Shown: one piece after another, positions 7,735-39,022 of the stretch
How the letters are laid out: every line of letters begins with the position of its first letter
Position numbering within the stretch: position 1 is the first letter of the stretch
Assembly (NCBI RefSeq): GCF_014055025.1
Contig: NZ_CP059571.1
Location: 1,302,001 to 1,366,000, forward strand
From: Neisseria bacilliformis
GTDB lineage: Bacteria; Pseudomonadota; Gammaproteobacteria; Burkholderiales; Neisseriaceae
Direction: 5' to 3'
DNA length: 64,000 nucleotides
The notes under the pieces: model-generated
The model's database searches: none
The model's input: the letters and a program-made list of their open reading frames with translations, nothing else
What the model was told of the DNA's origin: nothing
Position numbers and translations under genes: made by a program

Positions 7735-8775
7735 TCAGACGGCCTCTGCCGTGTCTGCCCTGCGGCCGGCTTTTTCCACTTCGCGCCACGCCCGCATAAT
7801 CAGTTCGGGGTCGTTGTCTTTTAACAGTTCCGCGTCGGAGAGCATGCGCCGCCACTGGCGCGCGCCGTTCAGGCCGTGCATCAGGCCGAGGCAGTGGCGG
7901 GTGATGTGGCGCAGGATGCTGCCGCGCCCGTCGGCCAGCCGTTCGGCGGCGTAGTCGCGCAGACGCTCTGCCAGTTCGGCGTATACGGCGGGTTCGCGCG
8001 TGTCGCCGTAAAACAGCCTGTCCCAGTCGCGCATCAGCATGGGGTTGTGGTAGCACTCGCGCCCGACCATCACGCCGTCGGTGTGTTGCAGATGCAGGGC
8101 GGCTTCGGCGTTGGTTTTTATGCCGCCGTTAAGGACGATTTGCAGCGCGGGAAACTCGCGTTTGAGGCGGTAGACATAATCGTATTTCAGGGGCGGCACG
8201 TCGCGGTTTTCCTTGGGCGAGAGGCCGTCAAGCCAGGCGTTGCGGGCGTGGACGATGAAGACGGTGCAGGCGGTTTTTTCCGAGAGCGTGCCGACGAAAT
8301 CGGCCAGCGGCTGATAGTCGGTCTGCCGGTCGATGCCGATGCGGTGCTTGACGGTAACGGCGCAGTCGGGCGCGGCGTCCTGCATGGCGTTGAGGCAGTC
8401 GGCCACCAGCGCAACCTCGTTCATCAGGCACGCGCCGAACGCGCCTTTCTGCACGCGCGGGCTGGGGCAGCCGCAGTTGAGGTTGATTTCGTCGTAGCCC
8501 CACGCCGCCGCTTCGGCCGCCGCTTTGGCCAGCAGCGCGGGTTCGCTGCCGCCCAGTTGCAGGGCGACGGGGTTTTCGCAGTCGTTTTTCAGCAGGAAAC
8601 GCGCCGCGTCGCCGTGTACCACCGCGCCGGCGTTGACCATTTCGGTGTACAAGAGGGCGTGGCGGCTGATTTGGCGGGCGAGGAAGCGGAAGTGGCGGTC
8701 GGTCCAGTCGAGCATGGGGGCGACGGAAAGGCGGCGGGGGAGGGTGTCGGGGGTGGTTTTTTCTGTTGGCGGCAT
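7735..8775 (-). CDS. dusA: tRNA-dihydrouridine(20/20a) synthase
   Basis: A 346-residue FMN enzyme reducing uridines in the tRNA D-loop. Typical DusA features: LSVAPMLDWTDRHFR at the N-terminus, LQLGGSEP, the catalytic-Cys region EINLNCGCPSPRVQKGAFGACLM, the HARNAWLDGLSPKENR loop, and NGGIKT with GVMVGRECYHNP binding FMN phosphate. The frame is open to 8979, but the upstream residues are encoded by uptake-sequence DNA and low-complexity sequence, so ATG at 8775 (MPPTEKTTPD) is taken. The last residues are also encoded by an uptake sequence. Monocistronic by context. Confidence 0.93.
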   Translation of the reverse strand: MPPTEKTTPDTLPRRLSVAPMLDWTDRHFRFLARQISRHALLYTEMVNAGAVVHGDAARFLLKNDCENPVALQLGGSEPALLAKAAAEAAAWGYDEINLNCGCPSPRVQKGAFGACLMNEVALVADCLNAMQDAAPDCAVTVKHRIGIDRQTDYQPLADFVGTLSEKTACTVFIVHARNAWLDGLSPKENRDVPPLKYDYVYRLKREFPALQIVLNGGIKTNAEAALHLQHTDGVMVGRECYHNPMLMRDWDRLFYGDTREPAVYAELAERLRDYAAERLADGRGSILRHITRHCLGLMHGLNGARQWRRMLSDAELLKDNDPELIMRAWREVEKAGRRADTAEAV

Positions 8776-8875
8776 GGGACGGGAAAGCAGTTGGGCGGGC
8801 GGCGGATTGTACCGAAAGCGGGGCGGTTGGTAAAAAGCGGCGGTTTGGCGCGTGTGTCGGCGGCGGACAAGTTCA

Positions 8876-8909
8876 AAGGCCGTCTGAAAGGTTTTCAGAC
8901 GGCCTTTTG
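8876..8909. terminator. Inverted uptake-sequence pair with T run
   Basis: AAAGGCCGTCTGAAA and TTTTCAGACGGCCTTTT form a near-perfect stem with a tiny loop, just after the DUF333 lipoprotein gene on the minus strand and upstream of dusA. Confidence 0.75.
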
Positions 8910-8912
8910 GGC

Positions 8913-9173
8913 TTACTCTTTGTGGTTTTTGCGGTAGTAGTCCCATTCGTCCACCACGCTGCCGTCGCTCAGGCGGCACATGCCGTATTCGTTGCCCTGT
9001 TCGTCTTTGCGCACTTCGGATTTGCCGCCCTGCTGTTCGCAGAAGACGGAGGCGGGGTTGGCCATGCCGACCATCGCGCCTTCGGGCTGCCCGACGGGTT
9101 TTTCCGCAGGGGCGGCGCAGGCGGCGAGGGCTGCGGCTGCGGCGAGGGTGCAGAGGGTTGTTGCGTTTTTCAT
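8913..9173 (-). CDS. DUF333 family lipoprotein
   Basis: An 86-residue protein with a lipoprotein signal peptide: MKNATTLCTLAAAAALAACA, lipobox LAAC with the acylated Cys at residue 19. After a short linker comes NPASVFCEQQGGKSEVRKDE followed by GNEYGMCRLSDGSVVDEWDYYR, which matches DUF333, a small domain in proteins loosely annotated as putative hemolysin. It should sit on a membrane facing the periplasm. Function is not established for the family. Confidence 0.8.
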   Translation of the reverse strand: MKNATTLCTLAAAAALAACAAPAEKPVGQPEGAMVGMANPASVFCEQQGGKSEVRKDEQGNEYGMCRLSDGSVVDEWDYYRKNHKE

Positions 9174-26551: not shown

Positions 26552-26750
26552 GTTTTGCTCCTGTGCGGCGGTGTGCGCCAACGCCAAATTAGCGAATTCT
26601 AGCACGGCAGCCGTCTGAAAACAGAGATTGGAAAAATGGACATTGCGGATCAGATTAAGACAAATGACAAAAACAAATCAAAATTGACAAAAAAAAAATA
26701 TGATAATTTTGAAAGCAAGTTATAAATATATGGAAGATACTCAAAGCACC

Positions 26751-27917
26751 ATGTCTATATTCCTTAATTTTGATATTGCACCTGAAACTTTCAGGCAAGA
26801 ATATCTATACCAAAAACCAAAGTTGTTCAAGAATGCAGTAATAAACCTTGAAGCCGTATCATGGGATGAGATCAACGGGCTTTACCAACGTGCCAATCCT
26901 GCTGCTCCATTGTTTCATTTGCGCAAAAAAGGCGTGATTGTTCCCAAAGAAGAATATGTCGAAATATTTGATGACTTGGGAAATATCCGCCACCGTTTTA
27001 TCAAACCCGTTATCTATGAACACATGCGTAACGGTGCGTCACTTATTTATAATCATATTAACAACGAACCGTTTTCAGACGGCATCGCCCGGCAAATCGG
27101 CGCATTAGCGCAGGCGCATACCGTAACCAGTGCCTATCTTTGCTTTGGTAGCGACGAATCCTACAAAAACCATTGGGATACGCGCGACGTATATGCCGTT
27201 CAGCTTGTCGGTAAAAAACGCTGGTATCTTTCCGCCCCTAATTTTCCACAGCCGCTGTATATGCAGCAAACCAAAGATTTGAATGTTACAGAACCCGATA
27301 CTGTTGATTACGACATTGTGCTTGAAGCGGGCGATGTGCTCTACATTCCGCGCGGCTGGTGGCACAATCCGATACCGATGGGTTGCGAATCTTTCCATCT
27401 TGCCGTTGGTACATTTCCGCCCAACGGCTATGACTACCTTGAATGGCTGATGTGGAAAGGACAAGGCAAAATTCCCGAAATTGAAAGCCTGCGCCATAGC
27501 TTTACAGACTGGCAAACCGATAAAGAACGTCTTGTTGATGTCGCTGAAAAAATTGCCTGTATCATCTGTTCGCCTGAACGCTACGCTGCCTTTTTGGAAG
27601 AATTTTTAGGCGAGAAGCGCACCGACAGCATATTTAATTTGGAAAAATTTGCCAATCCTCAAGCCTCCATCCTTGCAGACGACCTTAAGGTCCGCCTGAA
27701 TACCGTTAACGCATCGACTGCGAAACAGGGGCTTCTGATTGCCAACGGTACGAAAATTAACGCGCAAGGAGCAGGATGTGAAGTTTTGGCTTTTATTTCC
27801 ACGCATCAACCGGTTGCCATTAGTAAGGTACTGGCGCAGTTCGATGCCGCCAAGCATGAGGAAATCAGAGAGCTTTTGACGCGATTGGCCGATTTGGATG
27901 CGGTGGAGGTTTTCTAA
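26751..27917 (+). CDS. Cupin-like (JmjC) Fe(II) oxygenase
   Basis: A 388-residue protein starting MSIFLNFDIAPETFRQEYLY. Residues ~135-230 hold a JmjC/cupin core: NHWDTRDVYAVQLVGKKRW supplies the His-x-Asp and GDVLYIPRGWWHNP the distal His of a 2-oxoglutarate/Fe(II) site. These proteins hydroxylate peptides or ribosomal proteins. Earlier ATGs at 26730 and 26700 are in frame; the start is uncertain. SD-led small genes follow at once (27919, 28174), so modification of the small peptide encoded downstream is a reasonable guess but unproven. AT-rich relative to aroC. The 26552-26700 stretch is very AT-rich and contains TTGACA at 26684. Confidence 0.7.
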   Translation: MSIFLNFDIAPETFRQEYLYQKPKLFKNAVINLEAVSWDEINGLYQRANPAAPLFHLRKKGVIVPKEEYVEIFDDLGNIRHRFIKPVIYEHMRNGASLIYNHINNEPFSDGIARQIGALAQAHTVTSAYLCFGSDESYKNHWDTRDVYAVQLVGKKRWYLSAPNFPQPLYMQQTKDLNVTEPDTVDYDIVLEAGDVLYIPRGWWHNPIPMGCESFHLAVGTFPPNGYDYLEWLMWKGQGKIPEIESLRHSFTDWQTDKERLVDVAEKIACIICSPERYAAFLEEFLGEKRTDSIFNLEKFANPQASILADDLKVRLNTVNASTAKQGLLIANGTKINAQGAGCEVLAFISTHQPVAISKVLAQFDAAKHEEIRELLTRLADLDAVEVF

Positions 27918-27918
27918 A

Positions 27919-28131
27919 ATGGAATATTGGACTTTTTTTATTGTGAAATTTATTTATTTTATGTTTGTTTTTTTAATAGGGTTCTTGTTGTTATTTGGTA
28001 TGTATTTTGGAAAAGATGTTGTATTATCGAAAACAGGTGTATTAAATATCTTATTTGGATCATTTTTAGGTGCATCTCTTGGTTCAATATTTGAAACATT
28101 ATCTAGATATATACAAGAAGATGTAAAATAG
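27919..28131 (+). CDS. Small membrane protein, possible immunity protein
   Basis: A 70-residue, very hydrophobic protein: helix one is FFIVKFIYFMFVFLIGFLLL, helix two around GVLNILFGSFLGASLGSIF, with a charged C-terminus RYIQEDVK. GGAGG ten bases before ATG 27919 is a strong ribosome-binding site, and it overlaps the end of the oxygenase gene. Two-helix proteins of this size next to microcin precursors are often self-immunity proteins. That role is inferred only from position and topology. Confidence 0.6.
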   Translation: MEYWTFFIVKFIYFMFVFLIGFLLLFGMYFGKDVVLSKTGVLNILFGSFLGASLGSIFETLSRYIQEDVK

Positions 28132-28173
28132 AAGCTAAATTAAAATTTATTAATATAATATTAAGGATTATTA

Positions 28174-28509
28174 ATGAAAGAATTGAGTATTAAAGATCTA
28201 TGTTTGGTTGTTGCTGGGGCATCAGTTTCCCCAAGCAGAGGAAATGCAAGCTCCCCTAGTAAGCGGGAATTAGCAAAAGAATGTAGGGATGACATAGTTA
28301 TGGGTATAGGTGCAGGAGCATCTGTGGGGGCTTTGACAAAAAATGTCTATGCGGCAGGAGTTCTTTCATTAGTTGGAGGAGCTGTAGCAACAAAGATAAG
28401 TTCGGAATGCCAAGCTTTTATTAAAATGAATGAATCAAATGCAATGAAATCTTCTTCCGGAAGAGACAAAACCGGCAATGGCTATTCGGACGGCTGTGAT
28501 TATTGCTGA
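28174..28509 (+). CDS. Candidate microcin/bacteriocin precursor
   Basis: A 111-residue peptide preceded by AAGGA. The N-terminus MKELSIKDLCLVVAGASVSP resembles a double-glycine-type leader (ELS...L...VxGA) although the Gly-Gly is Gly-Ala or absent. The middle is Gly/Ala-rich and hydrophobic (VMGIGAGASVGALTKNVYAA, GVLSLVGGAVATKISS), typical of pore-forming class II microcins. The tail is Ser/Gly-rich and ends NGYSDGCDYC, with two Cys. An HlyD/CvaA-type exporter gene follows. No homologue is recalled with confidence. Confidence 0.6.
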   Translation: MKELSIKDLCLVVAGASVSPSRGNASSPSKRELAKECRDDIVMGIGAGASVGALTKNVYAAGVLSLVGGAVATKISSECQAFIKMNESNAMKSSSGRDKTGNGYSDGCDYC

Positions 28510-28594
28510 TTCCTTTTTAAACGGCTTATTTTCAAGGCCGTCTGAAACATTATCATCAACCCCCGATTTGTAAAAAGAAACCGTTTGAACAATC

Positions 28595-29869
28595 ATGGAT
28601 GATCCGACCCCCTTTTTCCGTCCTGAAGTATTTGATGCCCGGCAAAACCGCTGGACGGGCAGGATTGTCCTGTCGCGCCCGTATTCGGGCGTGGTGCTGA
28701 CTTGGTGTGCGGCAGCGGCGGCTTCGGCGGTGCTGCTGTTCCTGATATTCGGTAGTTACACGGAAAAAACCACGGTTGAGGGGCAGCTGCTGCCTGTGTC
28801 GGGTGTAGTACGCGTGTATGCGCCGGATACGGGTGTGATTACGGAAAAATATGTCGGAGACGAGATAAAAGTAAATGCCGGCGACAAGCTGTTTGCACTT
28901 TCAACTTCTCGTTTTGACGGCAGTGGCAGCATCCAGCAGCGGTTGGCGAAAGAAGCTGTTTTGAAGAAAACACTGGCGCAGCAGGAATTGGTGCGGCTGA
29001 AGTTAATTCATGACAATGAAACGCGCAGCCTTCGTAATACGATAAATCGTCTCAACAGTCAGCTCCTGTATATTAAAGGGCAGGTTGAAAGTCAAAAACG
29101 GAGGGTAAAACTTACTGGAGAGTTGTTGCATAAATACCGTTTTCTCGCCACCAGTGATGCCGCTTCAAAACAAGAAGAGATGAATGCGGAAGCCGATATG
29201 CTTGAGCAGAAAGCCAAGCTTGATGCTTACCGGCGTGAGGAAGTGGGGCTGATGCAGGAAATCAAAGCGCAGGAACTGTCTGCTGCCAGCCTTCCTCAAC
29301 GCCATCAAACCGAACAAAGCCAACTTGAACGGGCAATTGCCGATATTTCTCAGGAAATATTGGATTTTGAAATGCGTTCGGAACAAATCATCCGTGCCCC
29401 ACGTTCGGGCTACGCGGCCACACCGAATGTGGAGGTTGGACAACAGGTCGATCCGTCAAAACTTTTGATGAGCATTGTGCCTGAACACAGTGAACTTTAT
29501 GCCAATCTATATGTGCCGAGCAAAGCGGCAGGCTTCATTAAGCCGGGTAAAAAGGTAGTACTGCGTTATTAGGCTTATCCGTATCAGAAATTTGGTCATG
29601 CCGAAGGTGTGATCGTATCAATTGCCAAAACCTCACTTGGAAAGCAGGAATTTGCAGGATTAGGACAGGTTTTCACTAATTTAACATTACCGAATGAACC
29701 GGTATATTTGGTAAAGGCTAAGCTGGACAGGCAGACAATAACGGCTTACGGTGAAGAAAAATCTTTGCAAATCGGCATGACGTTGGAAGCGGATATTTTG
29801 CATGAAAACAAGAAATTATATGAATGGATACTTGATCCTTTGTACAGTGTTACAGGGAGGATGAATTGA
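28595..29869 (+). pseudogene. HlyD/CvaA-type secretion adaptor interrupted by one amber codon
   Basis: The first open part (325 residues) begins MDDPTPFFRPEVFDARQNRW, has one membrane helix (~31-53), a lipoyl-like half (VYAPDTGVITEKYVGDEIKV), a long coiled coil and the second lipoyl half (IIRAPRSGYAATPNVEVGQQ). It ends KKVVLRY then TAG (29570-29572). The same frame goes on AYPYQKFGHAEGVIVSIAKT to MTLEADILHENKKLYEWIL and stops at 29869. RYQAYPYQKFGH is the normal family reading, so CAG has become TAG. The ABC exporter expected next is missing; an IS begins four bases after this gene. Confidence 0.85.
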
Positions 29870-29873
29870 ATAA

Positions 29874-30585
29874 GGGGCTGTACTAGATAAGCCCTAAATT
29901 CCACACCACCGACGCAGCACTTTGAGCTGCTCGGAAGGTGTGCCAAAGTTAAAACGGAACTCGCATTCTTTCAAGAACAGCGGGAAAGATTTTCGGTCGA
30001 TTCCGTTGTATTTGCGCAGTACGCGCTTTGCCTGATTCCAGAAATTTTCAATGCCGTTGATGTGGTTCTGCCTGTCGGCAAACAGCTTGCTGTGGTTGAT
30101 GCGTTGGTGGGTAAAGCCACTCACATCCAATACGTCATAGCTGCCCAGGCAATCCGTATAGACAATGCTGTCCGGCATGATTTTCTTTGTGATAACAGTC
30201 AGTAAGGTTTCTCTTTTGGCGTTTTCAACCACTACGGTATAGACCTTGCCGCCGCGTTTGAGAATACCGAAAACCGCCGCCTTGCCTGCCGCACCGCGCC
30301 CGCGTTTGCCTTTGCGGTGTCCGCCGAAATAACTCTCGTCCAACTCGACCGAGCCGTTAAAAACCATATCGGCTTCCAACGAGAGATGATGGCTGATGAC
30401 TACGCGAACCTTGCGGTAAAACAGCACTGCCGAATTGGGGTGGATGCCCAATAAATTGGCAGCTGAACGGGCGGTAACTTCGAGTACAAAAAATTGGAGC
30501 AGTTTCTTTTGAATACTCTTTTTAGCTTACAACGGGTTATCTTCGTTTTTGCAGTCTAACATGACTGCTTATCTAGTACAGCCCC
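29874..30585 (-). mobile_element. IS1016-like element (IS1595 family), copy 1, damaged
   Basis: 712 bp bounded by GGGGCTGTACTAGATAAGC and its inverse GCTTATCTAGTACAGCCCC. It is nearly identical to the copy at 36832-37544. It sits directly after the export adaptor gene, where an ABC transporter gene would be expected. Confidence 0.85.
29894..30546 (-). pseudogene. IS1016-like transposase, 5' end broken
   Basis: Most of the IS1595-family DDE transposase is intact (185 residues from MGIHPNSAVLFYRK to LKVLRRWCGI; SVELDESYFGGHRKGKRGRG and the IENFWNQAKRVLRKYNGI region present). Compared with the full copy at 36871, the start codon is ACG instead of ATG and one A is missing in the run after the eighth codon, so the N-terminal ~30 residues are out of frame. 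Probably inactive. Confidence 0.75.
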
Positions 30586-30665
30586 TTTAACTTTGGCACA
30601 CCTTCCGAGCAGCTCAAAGTGCTGCGTCGGTGGTGTGGAATTTAGGGCTTATCTAGTACAGCCCC
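30586..30665 (+). mobile_element. IS1016-like 3' end fragment in opposite orientation
   Basis: About 78 bases identical to the end of the IS (encoding the last residues FGTPSEQLKVLRRWCGI and the right terminal repeat) lie directly against copy 1 but inverted. This implies an older copy in plus orientation that was cut by the insertion or by recombination. Confidence 0.8.
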
Positions 30666-31766
30666 TTTAATTTTGGTGCATAACCTGTTGTGCCGATATC
30701 GCCATAAAGAAAATGCTGTTTGTTACGGATTTGATTATAAGTAGTTTGAAGAGAAAGATTAGAATTAAAAAAGTGCTTGTATTCAATAAAAAAAATTGTC
30801 ATTTATTTGCTTGTCAAACGCCCAGTCTGCGCCGTTATTGAAATTCGGCGGGGTGTCGCGGGCATCTATCCATTCCAGTTTCTCTTCATATGTATTGGGG
30901 TCTAGCCCCAAATTGACGCGGGAGTAGCGGGAAACCCCTCTGCGTGGTGCGCCGCGTACAACACGGTGCTGGTGGCGGTGGCCGAAGGTGAGAAAGTTTT
31001 TATTGTCGGGCGACCATTCGACTACGCTGTAGAGCGCGTGCGAACGCTGCCTTACTCTGTCTAGAAAGCTGTTGCTGTGCCCGAGCGTGGCGACAAAGCG
31101 GCCTTTGAGGGTTTTCGATTCGTTTAACGCGCCGCCGTAGTCGAATTCGATGCGCTTGTCGTTCCACGAGCCGTATTTCAGATTTAACGCCCCCGCTTTG
31201 GTGGCAGTGGGACGTTTGCGCATAAAATTGATGCTGGACGAAGGATCGCCCGCGCCCGTTGTCAGCCCCGTCGAGCCGCGCACCACTTCCACGCGGTCGT
31301 ATAAAAAGCTGTCTTGCGCGGTGCGCCCGCCAAGCATAGAACAGCTGACCATCACGCCGTCGAGCTGGTAGTTATCCACAGGAAAGCCGCGCGAATAGTA
31401 TTCCGCATCGCTCACGCCGGGTATGGAATCGTTAATTACCGTAATGCCCGGGGTTTCTTCGAGAATATCGTTGAGGTTTTGCAGGTTCTGATCCTGCATC
31501 TGCTGCTGGGTGAACACGCTGATGCTCTGCGGCGTTTCTTTGAGTTTCAAATCGAGCTTGGCAGCGGAGGTGCTGCCTTTGACGGTGTAATTGTCGCCGC
31601 TCTGGCGCGGGGTGTTGCGGCTGCCGCGCACCACCACGGCGGCAACTTTTCCTTCCGCCTCAACGGCTTCGGCGGCGGTGTTCTGCTCGGGCGGCTTGGC
31701 CTCTTCGGCCTGCGCATAAGCGGCAAACAGCGCGGCAATCACGACGGGCAGGGTTTTCGGGGACAT
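30666..31766 (-). pseudogene. TonB-dependent siderophore receptor, truncated and frameshifted
   Basis: Starts with signal peptide MSPKTLPVVIAALFAAYAQA, then a plug domain of FhuE/FpvA type: KETPQSISVFTQQQMQDQNL, LEETPGITVINDS, SRGFPVDNYQLDGV and YDRVEVVRGSTGLTTGAGDP, and the first barrel strands. The frame stops after NDNFFY at 30783, at a run of eight A (30788-30795). Removing one base restores IEYKHFFNSNLSLQTTYNQI and continues to the IS fragment at 30665. Only about half the receptor remains. It may have been the uptake receptor tied to the microcin or a siderophore locus. Confidence 0.85.
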
Positions 31767-32127: not shown

Positions 32128-33465
32128 CACTACTGTCCGGAATAAAAATCCCCACCCCAAAACAAAAAGGTTGCAGCCCAACGTTTTTACGGGTAAACCC
32201 CAGAGCGTCAACTCAAAAACATCAGGACTGCAACCATGTACAGCATAAGCCGACTCCAACAAATCATCAAGCCCATCATGCACGGACGCTTCCGGCACCA
32301 CATCCGCAAATATCAGGCAGACAAACACAATAAAGGCTTCGGCTGCCACAACCTACTGGTTTCCATGGTTTACGCCCACCTCAGCCACAGCAACAGCCTG
32401 CGCACCCTGGAACAATCCTTTAACGCCAACAGCAGCCACCACTACCACCTCAACGTCCGCAGCATCCGCCGCTCCACCCTGTCCGAAGCCCTCGCCAAAC
32501 GCGACACCCGCCCCTTTGCCGATATGCTCGCCGAACTGATGCGCACATGCAGCCGCACCCTGCGCAAACCCACACAAGAAACCGCCGACTTACCCTACCT
32601 CATCGATTCCACCCCCATCGCCCTCAAAGGACGCGGCTTTGACCAATGGGTCAGTAACAACGGACGCATTGCTGGTTTAAAGATTCATATACTGATGAAC
32701 CATGCCAACGGCTGTCCCACCGCCCAAAGCATCACCGATGCCACCATCAACGACATCGACCAACGCCACATCGTGCAGCCTGAAAAAGGCGCGGCCTATG
32801 TTTTTGACAAAGGCTATTGCGATGACAACTGGTGGGCAGAACCGGATAACGCAGGAGCCTGTTTCGTTACCCGTCTTAAAGCCAATGCCGCCGTTCAAGT
32901 GGTAGAACGCATAACGTCATCTGAAAACCCAAACACCAATGCAACCATCTTGGCAGACGAATACATCCGCTTCAAACACAAGAAGAACAGCAACCGACTC
33001 AACCATTACCACAGCAAAACCCTACGCCGCATTACCGTCAAACGCGAAGACAAAGCCCCTTTGGTGCTAGTGAGCAATAACCTGACCGCCCCCGCCCAAG
33101 AGATTGCCGATACCTACAAACAACGCTGGCAGATTGAATTACTGTTCAAATGGCTCAAACAACATTTGCAGCTCAAACGCTTTTTCGGACGCAATGCCAA
33201 TGCGGTGAAACTGCAACTGTTGTGCGCGATGATGGCGTATCTGCTGTTGAAGCTGTACCAACAAAGTACACGAACCTACGACAGCCTGCATTTGCTGTAC
33301 GCACGGATTGCGGGTTGTTTGTTTGAACGACCGCAAACACTGTATGCCTGCTATGCGCAGCGAAGGCGGGAGAGGGAGGTGTGGATGGAGGCGCAGGAAA
33401 GGTTGATTTGATGTCAAGTGTGTAGGGTGTTGATGTTTAAGGGGGATTTATTCCGGACAGTAGTG
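32128..33465 (+). mobile_element. IS4-family insertion sequence, copy 1 (1338 bp)
   Basis: Terminal inverted repeats CACTACTGTCCGGAATAAA and TTTATTCCGGACAGTAGTG. A 10-base duplication CGCCTGCGCG flanks it (32118-32127 and 33466-33475); removing the element and one copy restores a perfect dRS3 repeat. The copy at 37685-39022 has the same length, orientation and target position. Confidence 0.93.
32236..33411 (+). CDS. IS4-family transposase (copy 1)
   Basis: A 391-residue DDE transposase with the DUF4372-type N-terminus (MYSISRLQQIIKPIMHGRF). The catalytic Asp residues are in YLIDSTPIALKG and AYVFDKGYCDD, and the Glu in the IS4 signature YKQRWQIELLFKWLKQHLQL. Full length with no stop or frameshift, and identical in translation to the copy at 37793. 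Likely active or recently active. Confidence 0.93.
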   Translation: MYSISRLQQIIKPIMHGRFRHHIRKYQADKHNKGFGCHNLLVSMVYAHLSHSNSLRTLEQSFNANSSHHYHLNVRSIRRSTLSEALAKRDTRPFADMLAELMRTCSRTLRKPTQETADLPYLIDSTPIALKGRGFDQWVSNNGRIAGLKIHILMNHANGCPTAQSITDATINDIDQRHIVQPEKGAAYVFDKGYCDDNWWAEPDNAGACFVTRLKANAAVQVVERITSSENPNTNATILADEYIRFKHKKNSNRLNHYHSKTLRRITVKREDKAPLVLVSNNLTAPAQEIADTYKQRWQIELLFKWLKQHLQLKRFFGRNANAVKLQLLCAMMAYLLLKLYQQSTRTYDSLHLLYARIAGCLFERPQTLYACYAQRRREREVWMEAQERLI

Positions 33466-36831: not shown

Positions 36832-37544
36832 GGGGCTGTACTAGATAAGCAGTCATGTTAGACTGTAAAAATGAAGATAACCCGTTGTAAACTAAAAAAG
36901 AGTATTCAAAAGAAACTGCTCCAATTTTTTGTACTCGAAGTTACCGCCCGTTCAGCTGCCAATTTATTGGGCATCCACCCCAATTCGGCAGTGCTGTTTT
37001 ACCGCAAGGTTCGCGTAGTCATCAGCCATCATCTCTCGTTGGAAGCCGATATGGTTTTTGACGGCTCGGTCGAGTTGGACGAGAGTTATTTCGGCGGACA
37101 CCGCAAAGGCAAACGCGGGCGCGGTGCGGCAGGCAAGGCGGCGGTTTTCGGTATTCTCAAACGCGGCGGCAAGGTCTATACCGTAGTGGTTGAAAACGCC
37201 AAAAGAGAAACCTTACTGCCTGTTATCACAAAGAAAATCATGCCGGACAGCATTGTCTATACGGATTGCCTGGGCAGCTATGACGTATTGGATGTGAGTG
37301 GCTTTACCCACCAACGCATCAACCACAGCAAGCTGTTTGCCGACAGGCAGAACCACATCAGCGGCATTGAAAACTTTTGGAATCAGGCAAAGCGCGTACT
37401 GCGCAAATACAACGGAATCGACCGAAAATCTTTCCCGCTGTTCTTGAAAGAATGCGGGTTCCGTTTTAACTTTGGCACACCTTCCGGGCAGCTCAAAGTG
37501 CTGCGTCGGTGGTGTGGAATTTAGGGCTTATCTAGTACAGCCCC
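36832..37544 (+). mobile_element. IS1016-like element (IS1595 family), copy 2, intact
   Basis: 713 bp with ends GGGGCTGTACTAGATAAGC and GCTTATCTAGTACAGCCCC. Same element as at 29874-30585 but without the 5' lesions. Confidence 0.88.
36871..37524 (+). CDS. IS1595-family (IS1016 group) transposase
   Basis: A 217-residue transposase: short N-terminus MKITRCKLKKSIQKKLLQFF, recognition helix region RSAANLLGIHPNSAVLFYRK, then the ISXO2-like DDE core (VELDESYFGGHRKGKRGRGA, IVYTDCLGSYDVLD, HINHSKLFADRQNHI-like segment and IENFWNQAKRVLRKYNGIDR). Full length. It differs from copy 1 at several residues (D for N at VFDGS, P for T at LLPVITK, G for E at CGFRFN and SGQLK). Confidence 0.88.
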   Translation: MKITRCKLKKSIQKKLLQFFVLEVTARSAANLLGIHPNSAVLFYRKVRVVISHHLSLEADMVFDGSVELDESYFGGHRKGKRGRGAAGKAAVFGILKRGGKVYTVVVENAKRETLLPVITKKIMPDSIVYTDCLGSYDVLDVSGFTHQRINHSKLFADRQNHISGIENFWNQAKRVLRKYNGIDRKSFPLFLKECGFRFNFGTPSGQLKVLRRWCGI

Positions 37545-37684: not shown

Positions 37685-39022
37685 CACTACTGTCCGGAAT
37701 AAAAATCCCCACCCCAAAACAAAAAGGTTGCAGCCCAACGTTTTTACGGGTAAACCCCAGAGCGTCAACTCAAAAACATCAGGACTGCAACCATGTACAG
37801 CATAAGCCGACTCCAACAAATCATCAAGCCCATCATGCACGGACGCTTCCGGCACCACATCCGCAAATATCAGGCAGACAAACACAATAAAGGCTTCGGC
37901 TGCCACAACCTACTGGTTTCCATGGTTTACGCCCACCTCAGCCACAGCAACAGCCTGCGCACCCTGGAACAATCCTTTAACGCCAACAGCAGCCACCACT
38001 ACCACCTCAACGTCCGCAGCATCCGCCGCTCCACCCTGTCCGAAGCCCTCGCCAAACGCGACACCCGCCCCTTTGCCGATATGCTCGCCGAACTGATGCG
38101 CACATGCAGCCGCACCCTGCGCAAACCCACACAAGAAACCGCCGACTTACCCTACCTCATCGATTCCACCCCCATCGCCCTCAAAGGACGCGGCTTTGAC
38201 CAATGGGTCAGTAACAACGGACGCATTGCTGGTTTAAAGATTCATATACTGATGAACCATGCCAACGGCTGTCCCACCGCCCAAAGCATCACCGATGCCA
38301 CCATCAACGACATCGACCAACGCCACATCGTGCAGCCTGAAAAAGGCGCGGCCTATGTTTTTGACAAAGGCTATTGCGATGACAACTGGTGGGCAGAACC
38401 GGATAACGCAGGAGCCTGTTTCGTTACCCGTCTTAAAGCCAATGCCGCCGTTCAAGTGGTAGAACGCATAACGTCATCTGAAAACCCAAACACCAATGCA
38501 ACCATCTTGGCAGACGAATACATCCGCTTCAAACACAAGAAGAACAGCAACCGACTCAACCATTACCACAGCAAAACCCTACGCCGCATTACCGTCAAAC
38601 GCGAAGACAAAGCCCCTTTGGTGCTAGTGAGCAATAACCTGACCGCCCCCGCCCAAGAGATTGCCGATACCTACAAACAACGCTGGCAGATTGAATTACT
38701 GTTCAAATGGCTCAAACAACATTTGCAGCTCAAACGCTTTTTCGGACGCAATGCCAATGCGGTGAAACTGCAACTGTTGTGCGCGATGATGGCGTATCTG
38801 CTGTTGAAGCTGTACCAACAAAGTACACGAACCTACGACAGCCTGCATTTGCTGTACGCACGGATTGCGGGTTGTTTGTTTGAACGACCGCAAACACTGT
38901 ATGCCTGCTATGCGCAGCGAAGGCGGGAGAGGGAGGTGTGGATGGAGGCGCAGGAAAGGTTGATTTGATGTCAAGTGTGTAGGGTGTTGATGTTTAAGGG
39001 GGATTTATTCCGGACAGTAGTG
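37685..39022 (+). mobile_element. IS4-family insertion sequence, copy 2 (1338 bp)
   Basis: Same ends, length and orientation as copy 1. Target duplication CGCCTGCGCG at 37675-37684 and 39023-39032, again splitting a dRS3 repeat at the same base. Confidence 0.93.
37793..38968 (+). CDS. IS4-family transposase (copy 2)
   Basis: 391 residues, identical in translation to the product at 32236-33411, including the two Asp motifs and the YKQRWQIELLFKWLK signature. No lesion seen. Identity between the two copies indicates very recent transposition or gene conversion. Confidence 0.93.
   Translation: MYSISRLQQIIKPIMHGRFRHHIRKYQADKHNKGFGCHNLLVSMVYAHLSHSNSLRTLEQSFNANSSHHYHLNVRSIRRSTLSEALAKRDTRPFADMLAELMRTCSRTLRKPTQETADLPYLIDSTPIALKGRGFDQWVSNNGRIAGLKIHILMNHANGCPTAQSITDATINDIDQRHIVQPEKGAAYVFDKGYCDDNWWAEPDNAGACFVTRLKANAAVQVVERITSSENPNTNATILADEYIRFKHKKNSNRLNHYHSKTLRRITVKREDKAPLVLVSNNLTAPAQEIADTYKQRWQIELLFKWLKQHLQLKRFFGRNANAVKLQLLCAMMAYLLLKLYQQSTRTYDSLHLLYARIAGCLFERPQTLYACYAQRRREREVWMEAQERLI

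Follow-up and report, generated by a model that had tools for sequence, protein, structure and literature searches.

A class II microcin locus containing a cupin gene is already known from Acinetobacter baumannii. The Mcc17978 locus (mcaABCD) combines a microcin whose leader ends in GA, a cupin-like gene, HlyD and a SunT-type exporter, and its authors read the cupin as an immunity protein (PMC10333792; this and the other published systems are described from the parts of the papers available to us). The words oxygenase, hydroxylase and C-terminal have no occurrence in the accessible text of that study. We analyzed a 64,000-nucleotide stretch of the Neisseria bacilliformis genome (the window) and describe an island at 26.7–29.9 kb that is a decayed relic of a class II microcin cluster, not a working system. 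Two features of the mcaABCD type are found in it: a homologous cupin/JmjC gene in the locus, and a precursor tail, which we propose here as a shared feature of the type and which, by sequence comparison, goes together with the oxygenase. Mcc17978 was compared through L037 only, a locus on A. baumannii plasmid pMC23.1 whose genes stand in the same order, whose oxygenase shares 42% identity with that of the window and whose precursor is tailed. The window locus differs from Mcc17978 by its decay, and more than one precursor is present in several of the Neisseria clusters. The original prediction from the window sequence treated a cupin as a non-standard member of such a locus; Mcc17978/mcaB and, more distantly, Mcc1229/mctC show that it had already been published as one.

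Other described systems share parts of this layout. Plasmid pLQ510 of Moraxella catarrhalis carries mcbABCI, the genes for a proven bacteriocin (McbC) with HlyD and a C39-type ATP-binding cassette (ABC) exporter (PMC2761928). BipG of biphenomycin biosynthesis belongs to the JmjC enzymes and hydroxylates a precursor peptide of ribosomal origin, as we propose for the oxygenase here; its pathway differs in that ornithine is hydroxylated in a macrocycle and in that the accessible gene list contains a major facilitator superfamily (MFS) transporter and no C39 exporter (PMC12707348). The related BpmG and PbsQ are predictions (PMC12257519). E. coli Mcc1229 (mctABC) requires a cupin gene for an active microcin, uses the receptor CirA and is induced by iron limitation (PMC8853679). 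The cupin of plasmid L086, which we took to be MctC from its place in the gene order, is only 23% identical to the window oxygenase; the protein taken as MctA has 232 residues, a Cys-rich end and no such tail, and the exporter on this plasmid is annotated as an ABC transporter, with no HlyD listed.

Class IIb siderophore microcins have siderophore-attachment genes and a Ser-rich C-terminus. No attachment genes were recognized on reading the open reading frame (ORF) lists of the window and of the relatives' regions, although no dedicated search was made, and the tail is not Ser-rich. The class IIb microcins MccE492, MccH47 and MccM enter by Fiu (PMC10333792) and have a functional C-terminus, to which a separately made siderophore is attached (PMC6071977); the window type has an oxygenase instead. 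The Neisseria nap island is likewise an AT-rich island with double-glycine peptides, but it is a separate locus, which holds NapP/NapF and, in the accessible gene list, lacks an oxygenase (PMC11798529). Its published gene content (napA/B/C, napP and napF) differs from that of the window island, which was set apart from it by this description only.

The island reads on the plus strand as oxygenase, membrane protein, peptide and adaptor, and aroC, identified by reading its translation, adjoins it. The original prediction had named these parts, with a two-helix membrane protein preceded by a Shine-Dalgarno sequence, an insertion sequence (IS) and a siderophore receptor, and all of them are present:

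26700..27917, plus strand: intact JmjC_2/ROXA-like winged-helix oxygenase (McaB-type); PF08007 E 1.3e-27, PF20514 1.7e-6; likely start 26751
27919..28131, plus strand: 70-aa two-helix membrane protein, likely the cognate immunity protein; hydrophobic segments 7–25 and 40–58; GGAGG upstream
28174..28509, plus strand: 111-aa precursor with leader MKELSIKDLCLVVAGA, Gly-rich core and tail; AAGGA upstream
28465..28506, plus strand: conserved C-terminal tail DKTGNGYSDGCDYC of the 111-aa precursor; motif common to oxygenase-plus loci
28595..29869, plus strand: HlyD/CvaA-type adaptor, interrupted by an in-frame stop at 29570–29572
29894..30451, minus strand: IS1595-family transposase remnant; PF12762 4.1e-31; 3' of hlyD, in the place of the C39-ABC exporter in relatives
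30783..31766, minus strand: TonB-dependent siderophore receptor (FauA/FhuE-like), N-terminal fragment; probably outside the cassette

The first three genes are closely spaced. The peptide matches no Pfam family at E 1 and no PDB entry at E 10. An AT-rich island between GC-rich genes had been predicted, and this is borne out upstream, where GC is 54–69% over 24.0–26.75 kb and 33–48% over 26.5–28.75 kb; on the downstream side GC is 43–60% over 29.5–32 kb, with no sharp contrast to the island.

Several lines of evidence document decay. The two pieces of the HlyD frame match HlyD families separately, a whole-genome search finds one TAG inside it, and this interrupted copy is the sole hlyD match of its type in the genome at E 1e-20. 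The transposase remnant has 185 residues (217 in the copy at 36871), and the receptor fragment, of 327 residues, covers positions 10–270 of 727 in the FauA model; thus the expectation of broken genes was correct. So was that of a missing exporter ATPase. A C39-ABC exporter query found 20 matches at E ≤ 1e-10 in the window genome (2.49 Mb, single contig), none over query residues 1–223, the site of the peptidase domain; the best is 28% identical over residues 224–694 of 698. Because this search revealed no C39 exporter, the strain is probably unable to export the peptide, and with HlyD interrupted as well we read the strain as a probable non-producer. Precursor, oxygenase and immunity gene are probably left as a non-producing remnant, and the strain is possibly still protected.

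Complete clusters (oxygenase, leader-type precursors, small membrane ORFs, HlyD and an exporter ORF) were found in related Neisseria at L021, L022, L023, L024 and L025; L019 and L020 are partly decayed. In L021, L022, L023 and L025, HlyD has 423–475 residues as called and the exporter ORFs 697–727; Peptidase_C39 matches at 5e-36 in the L021 exporter, the only one tested. In these relatives an intact HlyD and C39-ABC stand beside the same oxygenase, and the class II microcin layout of the original prediction holds up. The leader of the 111-residue peptide ends in GA, and those of the relatives' precursors (e.g., MRQLDIKDLEIVTGA and MKEITIRELEMVVGG) in GG, GA or GS, all of the double-glycine type. 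The siderophore receptor, which had been counted in the cassette, probably lies outside it, because it is not a conserved neighbor of the oxygenase in the regions of the relatives that were read, judged by reading ORF lists and by BLAST with the window genes.

The precursors of the oxygenase-plus loci are otherwise dissimilar, yet their C-terminal tails are alike. Beside the window tail DKTGNGYSDGCDYC stand DPAGNNYCDDGTDY (twice) in L021, DKSGNNYDGTNY in L024 and DQSGNDYGDGCNY in L025 and, beyond Neisseria, AGNDYCEDGGNY on pMC23.1 and DKSGANYQDGSNYQK in G277, a genome from another family of the same order. The common type is G-N-x-Y-x-D-G-x-[DN]-Y. Median pairwise identity is 25% for the cores (105 pairs, 15 peptides) and 58% for the tails, a comparison that is partly circular because the tail stretch was chosen by motif. 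In the two L021 tails 7 of 14 codons differ and every difference is synonymous, so that the amino acid sequence of the tail is what is kept. The tail is not described in the literature searched, the coverage of which was partial.

Association with the oxygenase was counted with the motif G-(x)-N-(x)-Y within the last 24 residues and one fixed leader rule. Twenty-four loci were examined and 18 counted; those left out are L027, L028 and L029, which hold no more than fragments of the oxygenase, L036 (pLQ510), in which it is broken, L043 (a near-copy of L020) and L074 (an hlyD fragment only). In 10 oxygenase-plus loci, 13 of 23 leader ORFs carry the tail; among the 50 leader ORFs of 8 oxygenase-minus loci, none does (Fisher p 1.3e-8, a value that overstates independence because the loci are related). 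By locus, 8/10 oxygenase-plus loci are tailed by the strict rule, or 10/10 when frame-disrupted precursors are counted, and 0/8 oxygenase-minus loci. Ten leader ORFs of the oxygenase-plus loci lack the tail. Some of them look like membrane proteins or like internal starts that happen to fit the pattern, and the L019/L020 entries among them are precursors with a disrupted frame, the tail being encoded in a different one. The filters missed L022 7766–8155 (tailed) and L020 10341–10688 (untailed). Of the loci left out, one (L029) encodes a tailed precursor, and two (L027 and L043) have the tail in a leaderless frame. One genome, G051, holds both kinds of locus: the oxygenase-plus L024 is tailed and the oxygenase-minus L073 is not.

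In a tree of HlyD adaptors, oxygenase-plus and oxygenase-minus loci interleave. The oxygenase label changes four times, at least three of the changes being forced by well-supported branches; counted for the oxygenase-minus label, two are so forced. Since the two kinds of locus interleave, the linkage does not merely reflect common descent of the exporter, and the tail stays with the oxygenase through several switches. We conclude, from these sequence comparisons, that tail and oxygenase are linked. The original suspicion of a tailored peptide holds up to this extent; hydroxylation as the modification is our inference.

Homologues of the peptide standing without export genes or oxygenase had been named as evidence that would count against a microcin assignment. 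On this point the outcome is mixed. The peptide as a whole occurs in only 3 of the 83 genomes of the family, that of the window included. Its core does occur in the manner named, at L030 and L031, and both copies are without the tail. At L030 8611–9127 (G015, a genome without an oxygenase match) the core homologue (8876–9127) ends before the tail and lies beside a relative of the window membrane protein (8611–8856; 33% identity, E 7e-5, residues 5–46), with no oxygenase or exporter recognized adjacent; this would be an orphan precursor–immunity pair. At L031 8791–12837 (G082) the core (KECRDD...SPEC) forms the N-terminal part of a 1348-residue repeats-in-toxin (RTX) protein with 17 HemolysinCabind stretches, which would couple this putative warhead to another means of delivery.

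ROX-group enzymes hydroxylate ribosomal proteins. The window oxygenase shares with RoxA, NO66 and MINA the JmjC_2 domain and the HxD...H triad, and the window protein also matches a ROXA-like winged helix. Its best solved-structure matches are NO66, then the JmjC protein C2orf60, MINA and the L16 arginine hydroxylase. The metal triad H147-W-D149 ... H211 (numbering of window:26733–27914) is invariant in two alignments, of eight and seven sequences with the window included, and the triad stretch aligns with NO66. The winged helix scores 1.7e-6 in the window protein and 0.061 (below cut-off) in that of G277, and is unlisted at E 0.1 in the Acinetobacter oxygenase. The relatives begin at the residue equivalent to the ATG at 26751, which is therefore probably the true start.

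Within the family the oxygenase is present in 12/83 genomes, all of them in the genus, as eight full-length copies and four fragments. An hlyD match of this type occurs in 15 of 46 genus genomes, and these cover all eight with a full-length oxygenase; the 31 hlyD-negative genomes hold no full-length copy and all four fragments. More widely the gene is rare: at E 1e-30 it was found in 2/398, 1/399 and 1/369 genomes, the only carriers being the window's own genome and G277 (the 399-genome sample, one family of the same order, gave G277; the 369-genome sample, from the class, gave the window's own). The G277 oxygenase is 38% identical to that of the window. Some of the homologous copies on A. baumannii plasmids (42% identity) are interrupted by IS elements. 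A search of viral contigs found no relative.

The Moraxella plasmid pLQ510 carries an oxygenase frame upstream of its bacteriocin genes, as in the window type (57% identity over residues 12–279). It differs in that the frame is broken, McbC is untailed, and precursor and immunity gene lie downstream of the exporter. The broken frame and a tail-like remnant (DKSDNNYSD, before hlyD) occupy L036 3–1430, upstream of mcbA. A bacteriocin without the tail beside a broken oxygenase fits the linkage of the two. The words cupin and oxygenase are absent from the accessible text of the pLQ510 paper (PMC2761928).

We put at roughly 60% the joint reading that the island is a decayed member of the oxygenase-associated class II microcin type of Acinetobacter mcaABCD, and that in this type the oxygenase hydroxylates the precursor tail, the tail serves uptake through a TonB-dependent iron receptor and the small membrane protein confers immunity. 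The chemistry and the roles are proposed from gene content and sequence, antibacterial activity and immunity by analogy with Mcc17978 and McbC. The precursor would consist of a leader, a Gly-rich core acting as warhead and the short conserved tail. The JmjC oxygenase, of the Fe(II)/2-oxoglutarate type, would hydroxylate at least one tail residue of each precursor, presumably Asn, Asp or Tyr. The C39-ABC/HlyD/TolC exporter, in which the use of TolC is assumed, would then cut off the leader and secrete the peptide; the tail would engage a TonB-dependent iron receptor of the target cell, and the core would kill while the small membrane protein protects the producer. Three published results count in favor of this scheme: Mcc17978 enters by the catecholate receptors Fiu/PiuA (PMC10333792); deletion of mctC, the distant cupin gene, abolishes Mcc1229 activity, which is restored in trans (PMC8853679); and BipG, from a pathway for a ribosomally synthesized and post-translationally modified peptide (RiPP), is a proven ornithine hydroxylase (PMC12707348).

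A more specific version, which we consider doubtful, makes the tail a ribosomally encoded siderophore mimic whose hydroxylated Asp/Asn (or Tyr) residues bind iron, a built-in "Trojan horse" for catecholate-type receptors. If true, this would add a third chemical strategy to those of the unmodified (IIa) and the siderophore-conjugated (IIb) microcins, one in which a single modified tail delivers warheads that can be swapped.

A number of observations weigh against tail hydroxylation for receptor uptake. The class IIa microcin MccN also uses Fiu (PMC10333792), so receptor identity is no proof of an iron-binding tail. The Mcc17978 paper reports a Fur-like box at its own locus (PMC10333792); in our scan of nine upstream regions against shuffles, none stood out upstream of the window oxygenase or the Acinetobacter plasmid precursor, and the one that did, at L025 (14/19 matches, P 0.03), was not used. 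The tail test was not blind, because the motif was derived from oxygenase-plus loci, when the oxygenase-minus loci had yet to be retrieved, and the leader rule was set with both groups already in view. The tail is absent from the oxygenase-plus leader ORFs L020 10341–10688 (which has a Cys-rich end), L024 13828–14133 and L040 10633–10734, and the position of its Asn varies (G277 has G-A-N-Y). The oxygenase label is partly clustered on the HlyD tree (as low in 12–13 of 500 shuffles), which has four long branches of unsure placement, L040 among them. The window leader has one residue more before GA than most relatives, and the AlphaFold model of the oxygenase was unusable (mean predicted local distance difference test score 53; confident only from about residue 311, the C-terminal part). 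Finally, plasmid-borne mcaB alone protected a sensitive strain, and Bisaro et al. propose that McaB is an immunity protein (PMC10333792).

This last result underlies the main rival, which we rank second and regard as possible at well below even odds: the oxygenase itself would be the immunity protein, neutralizing or altering incoming or leftover microcin by recognizing the common tail. Tail and oxygenase would then co-occur because the immunity protein reads the tail, so the linkage is also expected, and an oxygenase still intact after loss of the exporter, as in the window, fits as well. However, small membrane ORFs also lie close to the precursors in these clusters, among them one on the Acinetobacter plasmid: a 76-residue two-helix ORF at L037 10699–10929, outside the gene table of the record and directly upstream of the A. 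baumannii precursor, is a candidate immunity gene. The metal triad, needless for simple binding, is fully conserved, one oxygenase accompanies several dissimilar precursors, and for Mcc1229 the distant cupin MctC is needed for activity while immunity comes from mctDE (PMC8853679).

Less likely again is a reading in which the oxygenase acts on the core or the leader and the tail is simply a signal for receptor binding or export. Fusions of RiPP recognition element (RRE)-like folds with PF08007 JmjC domains are reported, and bacterial homologues occur in RiPP-like contexts (PMC12710340), which lends this some support. Against it, the cores are dissimilar while the tails are alike, with the partial circularity of that comparison noted above; the leaders of oxygenase-minus loci look much like those of oxygenase-plus loci; and the tail is the sole shared feature found to be specific to oxygenase-plus clusters. 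Very unlikely, last, is a housekeeping RoxA/YcfD-like ribosomal-protein hydroxylase merely neighboring microcin genes: it would explain the shared JmjC_2 and winged-helix architecture and structural matches that include NO66, MINA and the L16 arginine hydroxylase, but the gene is rare, its full-length genus copies (8/46 genomes) occur only alongside the export adaptor, and the tail linkage would be left unexplained. The substrate is more probably the precursor, and we retain tail hydroxylation as the preferred reading.

Some related loci merit separate mention. At L024 9643–11774 (G051), two repeated 3' oxygenase fragments lie between precursors and small membrane ORFs, which suggests that units of oxygenase end, immunity gene and precursor are swapped or kept in store as cassettes. 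L070 2598–7460 (G018) is an oxygenase-free export locus with 14 short double-glycine leader peptides in one array. A Neisseria gonorrhoeae record (L075 8388–8845) contains a second, oxygenase-free hlyD locus, in which a leader peptide ending FGFSKKW is followed by a small lipoprotein-like ORF; by eye the pair resembles Moraxella McbC (which ends VGVTKKW) and McbI. Besides the records with the oxygenase, three of 696 plasmid HlyD records were inspected, from Klebsiella (L087), Janthinobacterium (L088) and Paraburkholderia (L089); no cupin is annotated in the stretches shown, and scans of L087 and L088 found no tailed leader peptide. A cupin on an A. lwoffii plasmid (24% identity) lies beside a methyltransferase and an MFS transporter, with no microcin genes annotated, and was set aside. 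A RepM plasmid bait for Acinetobacter chromosomes matched 7/339 genomes; the two best, G1135 and G1156, had a G+C content of 41–49% and 43–44% in small stretches and were taken as non-Acinetobacter. In the window, two copies of a 391-residue DDE transposase (32236–33411 and 37793–38968), whose translations look identical, flank the leuA region.

The cluster type itself is known from Acinetobacter. New are its members in Neisseria and G277, the shared tail, the linkage of tail and oxygenase, and the oxygenase remnant on pLQ510, a plasmid with a proven bacteriocin whose paper, in its accessible text, leaves the remnant unnamed (PMC2761928). If the proposed working is true, these clusters would encode a modular peptide in which one enzyme-modified tail carries unrelated warheads across the outer membrane, and this would aid in finding microcins outside Enterobacterales and in designing narrow-spectrum antibacterials.

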